Shown: one piece after another, positions 11,066-16,645 of the stretch | Numbering within the stretch: the first letter of the stretch is position 1 | How the letters are laid out: each line of letters opens with the position of its first letter | The notes under the pieces: model-generated | What the model saw: only the letters and a program-made list of their open reading frames with translations | The model's database searches: none | Told to the model about the DNA's origin: nothing | Assembly: GCA_004362315.1 (NCBI GenBank) | Contig: SNWL01000009.1 | Location: 480,357 to 544,356, forward strand | DNA from: Mycobacterium sp. BK086 | GTDB lineage: Bacteria; Actinomycetota; Actinomycetes; Mycobacteriales; Mycobacteriaceae | Direction of reading: 5' to 3' | Length of the DNA stretch: 64,000 bases | Program-made: the position numbers and the translations under genes

Positions 11066-12088
11066 ATGACCAATGCCATCACCGTCACCGGCGCCAACAA
11101 GCGCTACGGCGAGTTCGCGGCCCTCGACAACGTCGATTTCGTGGTGCCCGCCGGGTCGTTGACCGCCCTGTTGGGGCCCAGTGGTTCGGGCAAGTCCACC
11201 CTGTTGCGCGCCATCGCCGGGCTGGACCAGCCTGACACCGGCACCATCACGATCAACGGTCGCGATGTCACCAATGTGCCGCCCCAGCGGCGCGGGATCG
11301 GCTTCGTCTTCCAGCATTACGCAGCCTTCAAGCACCTGACCGTCCGGGACAATGTGGCGTTCGGCCTCAAGATCCGCAAGAAGCCGAAGGCCGAGATCAA
11401 GGACAAGGTGGACAGTCTGCTCGAGGTCGTCGGCCTCGCCGGCTTCCAAACCCGTTATCCCAACCAGCTTTCCGGTGGTCAGCGCCAGCGGATGGCGCTG
11501 GCCCGCGCGCTGGCCGTGGACCCGGAGGTGCTCCTGCTCGACGAGCCGTTCGGTGCGCTGGACGCCAAGGTCCGCGAGGATCTGCGGGCGTGGCTGCGCC
11601 GGTTGCATGACGAAGTCCATGTCACGACTGTGCTCGTCACCCACGACCAGGCCGAGGCGCTGGACGTCGCCGATAGGATCGCCGTTCTCAACAAGGGGCG
11701 CGTCGAACAGGTCGGCTCACCGACCGACGTCTACGACAGCCCGGCCAACGCCTTCGTGATGTCCTTCCTCGGCACGGTGTCGGCGCTCAACGGAATCCTG
11801 GTGCGCCCGCACGACATTCGGGTCGGACGCAATCCGGAGATGGCGATCGCGGCCGGCGACGGCACGGCTGAGTCCACCGGTGTCACCCGGGCCACCATCG
11901 ACCGGGTCGTATATCTCGGCTTCGAGGTGCGGGTGGAATTGACCAGTGCCACCAACGGTGCGCCGTTCACCGCCCAGATCACCCGCGGCGACGCCGAGGC
12001 GTTGGGGCTGAAAGAGGGTGACTCCGTGTACGTTCGGGCCACCCGGGTACCGCCGATCGCCGGCGAACTTCAGGTCGCCGCGGGTTAG
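11066..12088 (+). CDS. cysA: Sulfate ABC transporter ATP-binding protein CysA
   Basis: The ATPase of the sulfate importer, 340 residues. Visible motifs are Walker [10 protein letters not shown] near residue 36, Q-loop FVFQHYAAF, signature [15 protein letters not shown], Walker [12 protein letters not shown] and switch histidine VTHDQ. The C-terminal 100 residues form a TOBE-like regulatory domain that starts near [15 protein letters not shown] lies 22 bp after cysW, just upstream of ATG 11066. The stop codon interlocks with the convergent che1 gene as TTAG at 12085-12088. It hydrolyses ATP on the cytoplasmic side to drive sulfate or thiosulfate uptake. Confidence 0.94.
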
Positions 12089-12792
12089 GCTGCCGCGGCC
12101 CGCGCGGCCACCGCCGCATCGAACCGGTCGAGCACCGTCTGGGCCACCAGCGGGTGCGCGCCCAGCGGGTCGACCATCGACATACCCTCGGCATCGGCAA
12201 TGGCCGCGACTCGGTCGGTGATCCGTCCGGGCGCAATGAACCACGGCGCCACGACGATTCGCCGGGCGCCCTGGCCGCGCAGGATCTCGGCGCCGTCACG
12301 CACCGACGGCGCCGGTCCGGTGGCGTAGGCCACCTGCACGCCGGACCACCGGGTGCCGCGAGCCAGCGTGTCCGCCAGCGCCGAGGTGCGAGCGTTGGCC
12401 GCGGGGTGCGAGGAGCCGACCGCGACGATCAGCACCCCAAGCCCGCGCTCGAAATTGTGGATCTGGTTCTGCGCCAATCGTTCCCGCATAACCGCGAGCA
12501 AGCGTGGATCCTCGCCCAGGGTGTCGGCCTGGATCACGTCGGCGCCGGCGTCGGCGATCATCGCCGGGATGTCGGTGCGGGCGTGATAGGCACTCGCGAG
12601 CAGCAGCGGGGTGACGACGGCGGGACCGTCCAGCGTGCGCAGAGCGTCAGCCAGATTCGGCGAGTTCTGCTCGCAGAACGCCACTCCCACATCCAGCCCC
12701 GGGCGCAGGGCGCGCACCTGATCGGCCACCGCGTGGGTGGTGGCCGCGGAACGCGGATCGGCGCTGCCGTGTGCGGTGAGGATCAGCCTCAC
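12085..12792 (-). CDS. che1: CbiX/SirB-like sirohydrochlorin chelatase (Che1-like)
   Basis: A 235-residue member of the CbiX/SirB chelatase family, starting [13 protein letters not shown] with the metal-binding histidine in AHG and a second repeat beginning [11 protein letters not shown]. The expected reaction is metal insertion into a tetrapyrrole. Since it is co-transcribed with cysH and the siroheme enzyme sirA, ferrochelation of sirohydrochlorin to siroheme is the natural inference. GTG 12792 overlaps the cysH stop as GTGA and aligns with homologues; ATG 12810 is an alternative. H37Rv has the same gene (Rv2393) at this place. Confidence 0.85.
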
Positions 12793-13502
12793 GAAACGTG
12801 GAGCCCGCATTCTGTCTTCGCCTGACCCTGCCAGCGTCCGCTGCGCGGGTCGGCGCCCTCGAGCGGCTTGGCCGTGCACGGCGCGCAGCCGATCGACGGA
12901 TAGCCTTCCTCGACAAGCGGATTCACCAGCACGCCGTTGGCCTGGATGTAGGCGTCCATGTCCTCGTCGCTCCACGCGGCCAGCGGATTGATCTTCACCA
13001 GCTTGAAGCCTTCGTCGAAGCTGATCAGCGGCGCGTTGGCGCGGGTCGGCGCCTCCACCCGGCGGATCCCGGTGACCCAGGCCGTGTAGCCCTGCAGCGC
13101 CTTGCTCAGCGGAGTCACCTTGCGCAGCCTGCAGCATTCACCCGGGTTGCTGGCGAACAGATCCTTACCCAGCAACTGGTCCTGCTCGGCCACGCTGTGC
13201 TCGGGTGTGACGTTCACGACATGAATGTCGTAGACCGCCTCGACCGCGTCGCGGGTGCCGATCGTCTCGGCGAAGTGGTAACCGGTATCGAGGAACAGCA
13301 CGTCCACGCCGGGGCGCACCTTCGCGGCCAAATCGACCAGCACCGCGTCCTGCATGTTGGAGGCCACGACATATTCGCCGCCGAAATGCTTTTCGGTCCA
13401 TGCCAGCAGCTCGACCGCGCTTGCGCCGTCCAGCTCGGCAGCGCCTTTCGCCGCCAGCTCCCGCAGCTCGGCCTCGGTCACTCGATCCACCCCAATGCTC
13501 AT
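12789..13502 (-). CDS. cysH: Adenylyl-sulfate (APS) reductase CysH
   Basis: Reduces adenylyl sulfate to sulfite with thioredoxin in assimilatory sulfate reduction. The 237-residue protein carries the [4Fe-4S] ligand set of APS reductases, CC at residues 123-124 and CxxC at 206-209, and the C-terminal catalytic cysteine in ECGLH (C232). The cluster cysteines mark it as APS-specific rather than PAPS-specific. ATG 13502 overlaps the sirA stop as ATGA, so expression is coupled to sirA and to the attenuator upstream. Confidence 0.93.
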   Translation of the reverse strand: MSIGVDRVTEAELRELAAKGAAELDGASAVELLAWTEKHFGGEYVVASNMQDAVLVDLAAKVRPGVDVLFLDTGYHFAETIGTRDAVEAVYDIHVVNVTPEHSVAEQDQLLGKDLFASNPGECCRLRKVTPLSKALQGYTAWVTGIRRVEAPTRANAPLISFDEGFKLVKINPLAAWSDEDMDAYIQANGVLVNPLVEEGYPSIGCAPCTAKPLEGADPRSGRWQGQAKTECGLHVS

Positions 13503-15166
13503 CGCAAGTCCTCTTCCTCTGCCCGTACAGCCCACTGGGCGAAACGCTCACCCTCGCTTCTTTGTTTCACGAAGTTTCGGACGACTCGCTCGATGTAGTC
13601 GCCGAGTTCGGTCGAGAGCACCTTGTGCTGGCGCAGCTTGCGGCCGAAGGCGCTGTCCAGACCCAGGCTTCCGCCGAGGTGAACCTGGAACCCCTCCTCG
13701 GGGCCGTTACCGTCGTCGACCATCTGGCCCTTGAACCCGATGTCGGCGACCTGGATGCGGGCGCATGAATTCGGGCAGCCGTTGATGTTGACGGTGATCG
13801 GTACGTCCAGCGTGGCGTTGAGGTCCTCGAGACGCTTCTCGAGGTCGGGCACCAGGCTCTGAGCCCGCACCCGAGTCTCGGCGAAGCTCAGCTTGCAGAA
13901 CTCAATGCCGGTGCAGGCCATCAGGTTTCGCCGCCAGTGCGAAGGCGTCGACGGCAAGCCGAGGGCATCCAGCCCGCTGCGCAGCTCCTCGACCTTGTCG
14001 TCGGGGACGTCGAGGACGATCAGCTTCTGGTACGGCGTGAACCGAACGCGATTGGAGCCGACGGACTCGGCCAGGTCGGCGACCTTGGTCAAGATCGTGC
14101 CCGACACCCGTCCGGCGATCGGTGCCACGCCAACGGCGTTGAGGCCGTTCTTGAGCTTCTGCACCCCGACGTGGTCGATCGGACGGGTCACCGGTGTGGG
14201 CGCGGGTCCGTCGATCAGGGGTCGCTTCAGGTACTCGGTCTCGAGAACTTCACGAAACTTCTCAACACCCCAGTCCTTGACCAAGAACTTCAGCCGCGCC
14301 TTGGCCCGCAGCCTGCGGTAGCCGTAGTCGCGGAACACGCTGACGACTGCCTCCCAGACGTCGGGCACCTCGTCGAGCGGCACCCAGGCGCCGACGCGCT
14401 GACCCAGCATCGGGTTGGTGGACAGTCCGCCGCCGACCCACAGGTCGAAACCGGGACCGTGCTCGGGGTGCTCGACGCCGATGAAGGCGACGTCATTGAC
14501 CTCATGCACGACGTCCTGCAGACCGGAGATGGCGGTCTTGAACTTGCGCGGGAGGTTCGAGTACTCCGGCTTGCCGATGTAGCGCTTGACGATCTCGTCG
14601 ATCGCCGGGGTGCCGTCGATGACCTCGTCGAGCGATTCGCCTGCCAACGGGGAACCCAGCACCACACGCGGGCAGTCGCCGCACGCCTCAGTGGTCTGCA
14701 GGCCGACCTCGTCGAGCCGGCGCCAGATCTCCGGCATGTCCTCGACCTGGATCCAGTGGTACTGCACGTTCTCGCGATCGCTGATGTCGGCGGTGTCGCG
14801 GGCGAACTCGGTGGAGATGCCGCCGAGCGTGCGCAGGGCGGCCGTGGTCAGCGCGCCGCCGTCACTGCGCACCCGGAGCATGAAGAACTCGTCTTCGAGC
14901 ATGTCGGTGTTCTCGTCACCGGTCCAGGTGCCGTCGTAGCCGGGCTTGCGCTGGGTGTACAGACCCCACCAGCGCATCCGGCCGCGCAGGTCGGTCTTGT
15001 CGATGCTCTCGAAGCCCTGCTTGGCGTAGATGTTCTCGATGCGGTCGCGGACGTTGAGCGCGTCGTCTTCCTTCTTGAACTGCTCATTGGGATTGAGCGG
15101 TTCGCGGTCGCCGAGGGCCCACTGGCCCTCATTGCGTGACTTGGCCGCCTTGGTCGGCTGACTCAT
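13499..15166 (-). CDS. sirA: Ferredoxin-dependent sulfite reductase SirA
   Basis: Catalyses six-electron reduction of sulfite to sulfide using siroheme and a [4Fe-4S] cluster. The 555-residue protein has the duplicated ferredoxin-like and siroheme-binding halves of the nitrite/sulfite reductase family. The cluster and siroheme cysteines are in CTGIEFCKLS and NGCPNSCA in the C-terminal third. It was once annotated as nitrite reductase (nirA) in mycobacteria, but its operon with cysH and its Cys-responsive leader point to sulfite. ATG 15166 is preceded by GAGGAG, which lies in a hairpin. Confidence 0.9.
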   Translation of the reverse strand: MSQPTKAAKSRNEGQWALGDREPLNPNEQFKKEDDALNVRDRIENIYAKQGFESIDKTDLRGRMRWWGLYTQRKPGYDGTWTGDENTDMLEDEFFMLRVRSDGGALTTAALRTLGGISTEFARDTADISDRENVQYHWIQVEDMPEIWRRLDEVGLQTTEACGDCPRVVLGSPLAGESLDEVIDGTPAIDEIVKRYIGKPEYSNLPRKFKTAISGLQDVVHEVNDVAFIGVEHPEHGPGFDLWVGGGLSTNPMLGQRVGAWVPLDEVPDVWEAVVSVFRDYGYRRLRAKARLKFLVKDWGVEKFREVLETEYLKRPLIDGPAPTPVTRPIDHVGVQKLKNGLNAVGVAPIAGRVSGTILTKVADLAESVGSNRVRFTPYQKLIVLDVPDDKVEELRSGLDALGLPSTPSHWRRNLMACTGIEFCKLSFAETRVRAQSLVPDLEKRLEDLNATLDVPITVNINGCPNSCARIQVADIGFKGQMVDDGNGPEEGFQVHLGGSLGLDSAFGRKLRQHKVLSTELGDYIERVVRNFVKQRSEGERFAQWAVRAEEEDLR

Positions 15167-15173
15167 GAAATGT

Positions 15174-15193
15174 GCTCCTCGATGTCAAGGAGC
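15174..15193 (-). promoter_or_regulatory. Hairpin sequestering the sirA ribosome binding site
   Basis: On the minus strand GCTCCT (15193-15188) and AGGAGC (15179-15174) form a perfect 6-bp stem with an 8-nt loop. The 3' arm contains the sirA Shine-Dalgarno sequence, seven bases before its ATG. Closing the stem would block initiation, and opening it would need a competing upstream pairing, which fits control by the Cys leader ORF. Confidence 0.6.
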
Positions 15194-15286
15194 TGGCGTT
15201 CGAATCGCGCGAATCCACCGGTGGGCTGTTTCCGGCGGCGCAGATCCGGTCGGCCAGCTGAAGTACAGGTGGGCGGGTCTACGGCG

Positions 15287-15379
15287 TCAAGCCAGACAAC
15301 AACAGGTACAGACGCGCTTGAAATCCACATGCCGCCGAGCCACCAGTGCCACACGGCGCAGGTTCTGGGGGGCAGACAT
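15287..15379 (-). CDS. Polycysteine leader peptide of the sirA-cysH-che1 operon, 30 aa
   Basis: A 30-codon ORF about 120 bp upstream of sirA ends RVCTCCCLA before its stop, so four of the last seven residues are cysteine. ATG 15379 is seven bases after CACAAT, a plausible -10, which makes the message leaderless; ATG 15388 is an in-frame alternative. Short Cys-rich leaderless ORFs are known cysteine-responsive attenuators before the equivalent M. smegmatis operon. Low Cys-tRNA would stall the ribosome here and free the sirA ribosome site. Confidence 0.82.
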   Translation of the reverse strand: MSAPQNLRRVALVARRHVDFKRVCTCCCLA

Positions 15380-15386
15380 GTCGGCC

Positions 15387-15392
15387 ATTGTG
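15387..15392 (-). promoter_or_regulatory. Probable -10 element for the sirA leader transcript
   Basis: CACAAT on the minus strand lies seven bases before ATG 15379, the spacing expected when transcription begins at the start codon. The match to TANNNT is imperfect at the first base. Confidence 0.4.
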
Positions 15393-15472
15393 CCACGAAC
15401 CGCGTCAATAGCTCTAACCGGGCCAAATTTCGGCTCGCGATGAGCGAAAGTCGGCTCTGGGACACTGGAGCG

Positions 15473-16645
15473 ATGTCGGTCCGTCCCGCGCAGGCCGCCC
15501 TGCCGGTGCTCGCCCTGACGCCCGGCACGGCGTTCGGCCTCTATGTCCATGTGCCGTTCTGCGCGACCCGCTGCGGCTACTGCGACTTCAACACCTATAC
15601 CGCCGCCGAGCTGGGTGGCGCGTCCCCGCAGGGCTGGCTGACCGCACTGCGCACCGAGCTCGAACTGGCCGCTGAGCGGGTGGGTCCGGTACCGGTCGAC
15701 ACGGTGTTCGTCGGTGGCGGCACCCCGTCGCTGCTCGGTGGGGCTGGGCTGGGCGAGGTGCTCGACGCGGTGCGTAGCAGTTTCACGCTGGCCCCGGGGG
15801 CGGAAGTGACCACCGAGGCCAACCCGGAGTCGACGTCGCCGGAGTTCTTCGACCAGATCCGCGGCGCGGGCTACACCCGGGTGTCGCTGGGCATGCAGTC
15901 CACTGCCCCGCGGGTACTGGCGGTGCTGGACCGGACACATTCCCCGGGCCGGGCGCTGCACGCCGCCGCCGAGGCGACCGAGGCCGGATTCGAGCACCTC
16001 AACATCGACCTCATCTATGGCACGCCGGGGGAGTCCGACGACGATCTGCTGCGCTCGGTCGACGCGGCGCTGTCCGCGGGCGTCGACCATGTGTCGGCCT
16101 ATGCGCTGGTGGTGGAAGACGGCACCGCGCTGGCCCGCCGGGTGCGCCGCGGCGAGATCGACGCACCCGACGACGACGTGCTCGCGCACCGCTACGAACT
16201 GCTCGACCAGCGGCTGTCTGCCGCCGGACTGAGCTGGTACGAGGTGTCGAACTGGAGCCGTCCCGGCGCCGAATGCCGGCACAACATCGGCTACTGGAAC
16301 GGCGGGCAGTGGTGGGGTGCGGGGCCCGGCGCGCACGCGTTCGTCGGCGACACCCGCTGGTGGAACGTCAAGCACCCCAGCGCCTACGCCGAGACATTGG
16401 CCGGTGGTCAGGTGCCGGTCGCGGAGTTCGAGCGCCTCGACGCCCACGCCCGCCACATCGAGAACGTGCTGCTGCAGATCCGGTTGCGCACGGGCCTGCC
16501 GCTCGCGGCGCTGACGGAATCCGAGCAACGGCGGGCCGACGATGCGGTGGCCGGTGGTCTGCTGATCCGCTCCGGTGACCGGCTGGTGCTCACCGACCGC
16601 GGGCGGTTGCTGGCCGACGCCGTGGTGCGCGACGTGCTCGATTAA
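15473..16645 (+). CDS. hemW: HemW, radical SAM heme chaperone (formerly HemN)
   Basis: A 390-residue radical SAM protein with the cluster motif CATRCGYCDF near residue 30 and a C-terminal HemW domain containing RHNIGYWNGG and WWGAGPGAH. Such proteins were annotated as oxygen-independent coproporphyrinogen oxidases, but this subclass lacks the full HemN substrate-site features and is regarded as a heme trafficking protein. H37Rv has it as Rv2388c. ATG 15473 was chosen because the conserved sequence starts soon after; ATG 15440 is in frame. The stop interlocks with the next gene as TTAA. Confidence 0.88.
   Translation: MSVRPAQAALPVLALTPGTAFGLYVHVPFCATRCGYCDFNTYTAAELGGASPQGWLTALRTELELAAERVGPVPVDTVFVGGGTPSLLGGAGLGEVLDAVRSSFTLAPGAEVTTEANPESTSPEFFDQIRGAGYTRVSLGMQSTAPRVLAVLDRTHSPGRALHAAAEATEAGFEHLNIDLIYGTPGESDDDLLRSVDAALSAGVDHVSAYALVVEDGTALARRVRRGEIDAPDDDVLAHRYELLDQRLSAAGLSWYEVSNWSRPGAECRHNIGYWNGGQWWGAGPGAHAFVGDTRWWNVKHPSAYAETLAGGQVPVAEFERLDAHARHIENVLLQIRLRTGLPLAALTESEQRRADDAVAGGLLIRSGDRLVLTDRGRLLADAVVRDVLD

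Follow-up and report, generated by a model that had tools for sequence, protein, structure and literature searches.

Upstream of the sulfite-reduction operon sirA-cysH-che1 of Mycobacterium sp. BK086 lies a short open reading frame (ORF) that ends in a cluster of cysteine codons, and the question it raises is what selection holds constant there: the position of a ribosome on those codons, the peptide that is made, or both. The DNA analysed, referred to here as the window, is a stretch of 64,000 nucleotides that also carries a second short leader with a cysteine-rich end. The ORF before sirA is in all likelihood a leaderless cysteine-sensing leader of the Ms4527A family that tunes sirA-cysH-che1, and a ribosome running short of cysteine on this leader most likely switches the sulfite-reductase operon on. 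The features concerned are collected in Table 1.

Table 1. Features of the sirA leader locus and of the second leader, with positions counted from the first nucleotide of the window.
Feature	Position	Strand	Basis
Leader ORF (Ms4527A family Cys-rich leader peptide)	15287..15379	minus	30 codons and TGA; NF042936 match
Extended -10 TGGCACAAT, predicted promoter of leaderless transcript	15387..15395	minus	7 nt before ATG 15379
17-residue module LVARRHVDFKRVCTCCC (leader residues 12-28)	15296..15346	minus	peptide-level selection; strict pattern in 40/60 outside genus
Cys of module position 17, TGT, proposed sensor codon	15296..15298	minus	TGT 105/105 and 40/40; 0 parsimony changes
Remaining Cys tract TGT-ACC-TGT-TGT, module positions 13-16	15299..15310	minus	Cys at 13, 15, 16 rare beyond Mycobacteriaceae and near relatives
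Conserved untranslated spacer element CAGCTGGCCG..CGGATCTGCGCCGCCGG..CAGC..CCGGTG..GCGC	15205..15260	minus	alignment and folding; limits approximate
Hairpin GCTCCT-(8 nt)-AGGAGC enclosing sirA Shine-Dalgarno (AGGAG 15179-15175)	15174..15193	minus	sequence
sirA/nirA-type sulfite (nitrite) reductase	13499..15166	minus	nearest NCBIfam models all below cut-off
cysH, (phospho)adenylyl-sulfate reductase	12789..13535	minus	NF002537 273.5 bits, cut-off 154
Longest ORF with che1-like sirohydrochlorin chelatase	12085..13137	minus	chelatase models from residue 118 on, below cut-off
Other leader, Ms4533A family, 30 codons	8105..8197	plus	NF042937 52.6 bits, cut-off 31

The leader peptide is MSAPQNLRRVALVARRHVDFKRVCTCCCLA, translated from the minus strand from 15379 to 15287; read on the plus strand, the same bases give SSQTTTGTD... 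The first-pass annotation, which had put an ORF of 30 codons about 120 bp before sirA, gave the coordinates correctly; the ORF lies on the minus strand and 120 nt separate its stop from the sirA ATG (15166). The true start of the che1-like gene at the far end of the operon is probably further in than the start of the longest ORF. A single copy of the codon pattern TGY-NNN-TGY-TGY-TGY is present in the window where 0.12 would be expected; 11 of 100 shuffles reach this count, and the rarity of the pattern, taken alone, is modest against chance.

Polycysteine leaderless attenuators were reportedly described by Canestrari and colleagues in 2020, as elements in which mRNA structure covers the ribosome-binding site of the following gene until a paused ribosome relieves it. 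Since a small ORF upstream of nirA/Msmeg_4527 in M. tuberculosis and M. smegmatis is already in print, in a figure legend that covers RNA-seq and ribosome profiling of M. smegmatis at this ORF (PMC4633059, Fig 7 legend), the element itself is known. Passages in two further papers treat the Cys leaders of M. smegmatis as cysteine-dependent attenuators (PMC9031893, PMC13236596), one of them describing a downstream ribosome-binding site that is masked by mRNA structure and freed by the paused ribosome (PMC13236596), and a passage in a third, where the M. smegmatis leaders are presented likewise, gives six such leaders as predicted for M. tuberculosis (PMC9094748). In an NCBIfam profile search the sirA leader scores 49.3 bits against the Ms4527A family model (NF042936, cut-off 45), and it has the same placement on the strand of sirA/nirA, the Cys-rich C-terminus and the predicted leaderless start of that family. 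No essential difference separates it from the family; the copy of the window's species carries CTCCC with all four Cys codons TGT. NF042934 (putative leader peptide, cis_reg_atten) has the same motif over 19 positions and matches the leader weakly, at 18.2 bits (E 0.0014) and thus below its cut-off of 27. When the phylum was searched with this model, 11 of 149 genomes matched at E 0.01, seven of them above the cut-off.

Of 118 genomes of the genus 115 contain sirA, and 30 of these loci were used together with a further 80, the best 80 of at least 588 confirmed places in named genomes, so that the set of 110 loci includes Mycobacterium, Mycolicibacterium, Mycobacteroides, Rhodococcus, Prescottella and Nocardia. 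A six-residue motif served to locate the leaders, which are present at 108 of the 110 loci, with no locus of sufficient sequence missed; the remaining two lie on contigs that reach 130 and 63 nt beyond the match on its upstream side, and these were dropped for having too little upstream sequence. Removal of two identical duplicates left 106 distinct loci, near-duplicates still among them. At all 108 leader loci TGGCA[CG]A[AC]T stands before an in-frame RTG (ATG/GTG), at a distance of 7 nt in 77, 6 nt in 30 and 8 nt in one, and 6-8 nt is the spacing expected for a putative leaderless promoter of this kind; a generic sigma-70 scan called no promoter at the sirA leader. The length of 30 codons is not self-evident, because a second in-frame ATG lies at 15388, 9 nt upstream of ATG 15379. 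The latter is nevertheless likely to be the start, since ATG 15388 sits inside the conserved extended -10 and an in-frame ATG is kept at the equivalent place in only 47 of the 106 distinct loci, the other 59 having none, and the upstream codon is disfavoured on both counts.

Both leaders of the window do have 30 codons, but their identical length, which had been taken as a signal of selection, is a property of this pair only. Across the 108 loci the sirA leaders range from 26 to 36 aa (30 aa in 38, 31 aa in 47); the Ms4533A leaders measure 30 aa in 29 of the 30 loci examined, these being 30 of 36 matches. Because the sirA leaders vary to this extent, equal length was rejected as such a signal, and the shared value of 30 is, on this comparison, a coincidence. 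The conclusion that had been drawn from it, namely that a ribosome position is selected and not a peptide, is contradicted by the codons as well as by the variable length. In pooled pairwise counts, made without tree correction, RRHVDFKRVC has a pN of 0.050 and a pS of 0.574 over the 108 loci (pN/pS 0.087) compared with a pN/pS of 0.309 for 51 sirA codons, and in the 53 leaders of the commonest N-terminal length the N-terminal codons reach 1.051 where LVxRRHVDFKRVC of the same loci stays at 0.118. These ratios point to strong peptide-level selection on RRHVDFKRVC, stricter than that on sirA. In the Ms4533A leader pN/pS is 0.254 for codons 11-29 and 0.961 for codons 2-10 (30 loci), and judged by these values the peptide sequence is under selection in both leaders of the window. 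The nearly constant use of AGC for Ser14 was set aside as a sign of selection on the nucleotides, as TCN and AGY codons lie two steps apart and the constancy may be inertia.

The conserved part of the leader extends well beyond the mycobacteria. A survey of the class found sirA in 103 of 138 genomes, and 60 outside the genus were chosen to spread over families; two of the 60 belong to the window's own family (upstream DNA of 64 nt only at L188 and of 405 nt at L184). To look for the module LVxRRHVDLxRxxSxxC, a strict pattern was used, L-x-x-R-[RL]-H-[VI]-D-[LFY]-x-R-x5-C close to a stop. It matches the sirA strand of 40 of the 60 upstream regions, leaving 20 without it, and the opposite strand of three; 20 mononucleotide shuffles of the 60 gave no match. 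A looser search gave 42 of 60. The modules opposite to the sirA strand, of the form LVARLHVDLQRV..VC at loci L186, L191 and L192, apparently lead divergent operons, and L191 has modules on both strands. Class-wide pN/pS amounts to 0.41 for positions 1-12 and 1.04 for positions 13-16, figures that are biased by the leaders having been found by motif. From the module to the stop there is one Cys in 23 of the 40 class-wide leaders, two in 14 and three in three, with a Cys at position 13 in three leaders, at 15 in none and at 16 in two; in alignment, the single class-wide Cys at position 17 corresponds to the final Cys of the CxCCC that is common in mycobacteria. The single-Cys leaders among them suggest that several cysteines in a row are not needed.

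The module also precedes genes other than sirA. The claim that the two leaders lack similarity outside their Cys end is true for the pair in the window, yet the module of the sirA leader recurs in a leader elsewhere in the same genome (L111/L274, contig C2) and in leaders of other genera that stand before cysM-like, SsuA-family and SfnG genes. The former, LTKRRAVDLCRVAGCCCCCCSC, belongs to the Ms5788A family (NF042933, 52.9 bits, cut-off 45); it has RR.VDL.R and TGT at position 17 in common with the sirA leader and differs from it by a longer Cys tract and a Cys at position 10. It lies 592 nt upstream of an ORF named by eye as sulfurtransferase-like. With sirA matches and weak matches excluded, 23 module leaders before other operons were collected. 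The genes that follow them comprise two SfnG and one SsuA-family gene above cut-off, six sulfurtransferase-like and three cysM-like genes recognised by eye, two NMT1-type binding proteins (one weakly SsuA-like), one luciferase-like monooxygenase below cut-off, and three that are not obviously connected with sulfur, a 2OG oxygenase, a dicarboxylate-type symporter and a family 5 binding protein; for five of the 23, naming by NCBIfam and by eye gave no identity. The modules before the luciferase-like monooxygenase, the 2OG oxygenase, the symporter and the family 5 binding protein (L121, L124, L133 and L136) hint at sulfur roles of these genes that have gone unrecognised. Among the papers listed by a literature search on motif and codon there was no earlier account of the module and its codon choice, the database family NF042934 aside, although the 2020 work of Canestrari may cover part of it. 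What appears to be new here is the combination of a peptide module with one exact Cys codon, conserved well beyond the mycobacteria.

That codon is the TGT of module position 17, which is used by every one of the 105 loci with a Cys there among the 106 distinct loci and by all 40 leaders of the class set. On the SirA tree it shows no change, compared with 26 changes for H6, 22 for D8, 17 for C13, 20 for C16 and four for C15. The Cys codons of sirA itself are TGC 653 times and TGT 48 times, and of 68 conserved two-fold sites in sirA nine are without change and none is fixed for T. This comparison overstates the effect in mycobacteria, because T is more frequent at third positions throughout the leader (47/106 at H6, 52/106 at C13, 42/88 at C16 and 83/88 at C15), and the leader itself is the fair baseline; against that baseline position 17 still stands out. 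The other Cys codons between module and stop in the 40 class-wide leaders are TGT six times and TGC 14 times, and of the 23 leaders before other operons 22 have TGT at position 17, with TGC for nine of the ten Cys at position 10. Exceptions are L126, a leader before a sulfurtransferase-like gene with TGC at position 17, and L102, a sirA leader from Rhodococcus that has Pro at 17 and confines its Cys to 13 and 15. The genome contains 47 tRNA genes, and both of its tRNA-Cys genes have the anticodon GCA; TGT is therefore read by G:U wobble, and it may be inferred that this wobble codon is the first to pause.

The second leader of the window encodes MHSATGYGEGHILALIAVGTLAVADVACCR and precedes a gene for a sulfate-binding protein. 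Like the sirA leader it combines a leaderless-type -10 (TAAGCT, 7 nt upstream), a downstream sulfur gene, TGT Cys codons before the stop and a conserved peptide, but this peptide, LALIAVG..AVADV.CC, is unrelated and its length is nearly constant. In a search that allowed some freedom, all 30 Ms4533A leaders examined showed TANNNT at a distance of 6-8 nt upstream of an in-frame start. TGT fills both position 28 and position 29 in all 30 leaders and position 27 in nine of ten, and TGC occupies position 21 in 11 of 12 and position 30 in five of five.

For the RNA downstream of the leader, loci L009 and L103 were omitted on account of a doubtful sirA start, and 14 of the remaining 104 (Rhodococcus, Nocardia and Prescottella) were left unaligned, which gave 90 aligned mycobacterial spacers. 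The spacer element is highly conserved among these and can form a strong hairpin on folding; its covariation is weak, the paired cells amounting to 91.0% (shuffles 90.4%) and the double-change pairs to four (shuffles 2.3) over 55 sequences. Rfam covariance models at gathering score found only two tRNAs in the window, with no match to a riboswitch, a T-box or the spacer. A Shine-Dalgarno sequence (SD) of the GGAGC type occurs in 65 of the 90 spacers and another type in 25, and in the 55 of the 65 kept after thinning 91.3% of the cells of the SD helix are paired. Folding was carried out on 86 of the 90 aligned transcripts, four in which the script did not find the SD having been dropped. Within 45 nt before the ATG the SD is paired with a mean probability of 0.70 in 62 GGAGC-type transcripts and 0.13 in 24 others. 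When the RNA was masked as far as a ribosome standing at position 17, SD accessibility moved from 0.21 to 0.23 in the former and from 0.43 to 0.48 in the latter, the same as with the ribosome at the leader stop (0.24 and 0.49); for all 86 loci and all ribosome positions but the last it stayed at 0.25-0.32, and for the window's own copy at 0.00-0.05. The opening of the sirA SD by a paused ribosome was thus not reproduced by folding of these 86 transcripts. Pair maps set the Cys codons against a long hairpin in the spacer, the 3' arm of which reaches into the anti-SD, and suggest that the codons may compete with this hairpin. L057, L065, L068, L070, L075, L082, L094 and L098 are among the 25 mycobacterial loci that lack the GGAGC-type SD hairpin, and since there are such loci the downstream part of the mechanism may vary from clade to clade.

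The view of the earlier annotation amounts to plain codon counting, whereby only the Cys codons and the ribosome position matter and the peptide is irrelevant. In its favour, 60 of the 106 distinct loci carry four Cys between module and stop, the N-terminal part is neutral and TGT is fixed at position 17, but this view accounts neither for a RRHVDFKRVC under stricter constraint than sirA nor for a peptide module that recurs class-wide, mostly with a single Cys before the stop, and it is considered unlikely. Conservation of the peptide could also mean that the leader encodes a small functional protein acting in trans, placed before sirA merely for co-expression. Such a protein would not require TGT at one position, nor would it be expected to precede several different genes with its conserved part at a fixed distance from the position-17 Cys and ending near the stop, and this explanation is very improbable.

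Two further alternatives concern the RNA. The TGT of position 17 might be fixed by pairing of its U with an A and not by decoding, as the mycobacterial GUCU of codons 17-18 can pair with an AGAC after the leader stop and a 5-nt window with a forced U:A pair finds a downstream partner in 82 of 104 loci, a count made without shuffle control. The 6-nt window around position 17, however, pairs downstream in 20 of 40 class-wide leaders against 17.2 in shuffles and in 39 of 104 mycobacterial ones against 60.7, which is fewer; forced U:A pairing is available in only 16 of the 40 class-wide leaders, yet all 40 have TGT, and the unrelated Ms4533A leader makes the same choice. As pairing of the position-17 window does not exceed that of shuffles, base pairing was rejected as the cause of TGT and is regarded as quite unlikely. 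Control could alternatively be exerted on transcription, by a terminator or Rho, in place of the Shine-Dalgarno sequence; the strong conserved spacer hairpin and the lack of support for an SD switch from folding would be in keeping with this, but a simple consensus scan of the minus strand from 15050 to 15520 returned no terminator-like site of the kind a trp-type attenuator would have, and transcription attenuation is held to be improbable.

The preferred, and likely, reading is that the leader is an attenuator that responds to cysteine through a single sensor codon, probably with help from the nascent peptide. Transcription would begin at ATG 15379, as the conserved -10 indicates, and a ribosome would translate the leader directly; on a shortage of Cys-tRNA it would pause in the Cys codons, chiefly at the TGT of module position 17, while the conserved peptide LVARRHVDFKRV.., for which selection acts on residues and codon alike, would occupy the exit tunnel. 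The paused ribosome would then allow sirA to be translated from a Shine-Dalgarno sequence otherwise closed by GCTCCT/AGGAGC. As folding did not reproduce the opening and covariation is weak, this downstream half is inferred: the hairpin is present in the sequence, and its opening is carried over from published work on the family. The negative terminator scan of 15050-15520 speaks for this reading. The original proposal of a Cys leader before the sulfite-reduction operon that acts through ribosome position fits that work and the selection on the codon, and needs correction where it set position in place of the peptide. In arrest peptides such as TnaC, conserved nascent residues precede the pause codon. 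The residues ahead of a pause at position 17 would act alike.

On a broader scale, the poly-Cys leader may have been elaborated in mycobacteria from an older sulfur regulator that is spread through the Actinomycetes, a nascent-peptide pause module with one wobble-read TGT sensor that stands before sirA, cysM-like, sulfurtransferase-like, sulfonate-uptake and dimethylsulfone genes; this is offered tentatively, as a possibility that falls a little short of an even chance. On this reading a single Cys codon together with a peptide in the tunnel would be enough to read the level of Cys-tRNA. A known mycobacterial device is turned into a testable rule on the codon and the residues through which a ribosome comes to sense cysteine, and the invariant TGT makes a one-base experiment possible. 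It is this module with one invariant TGT codon, spread through the Actinomycetes, that is worth following, and it may serve as a signature for finding sulfur-responsive operons across the class.
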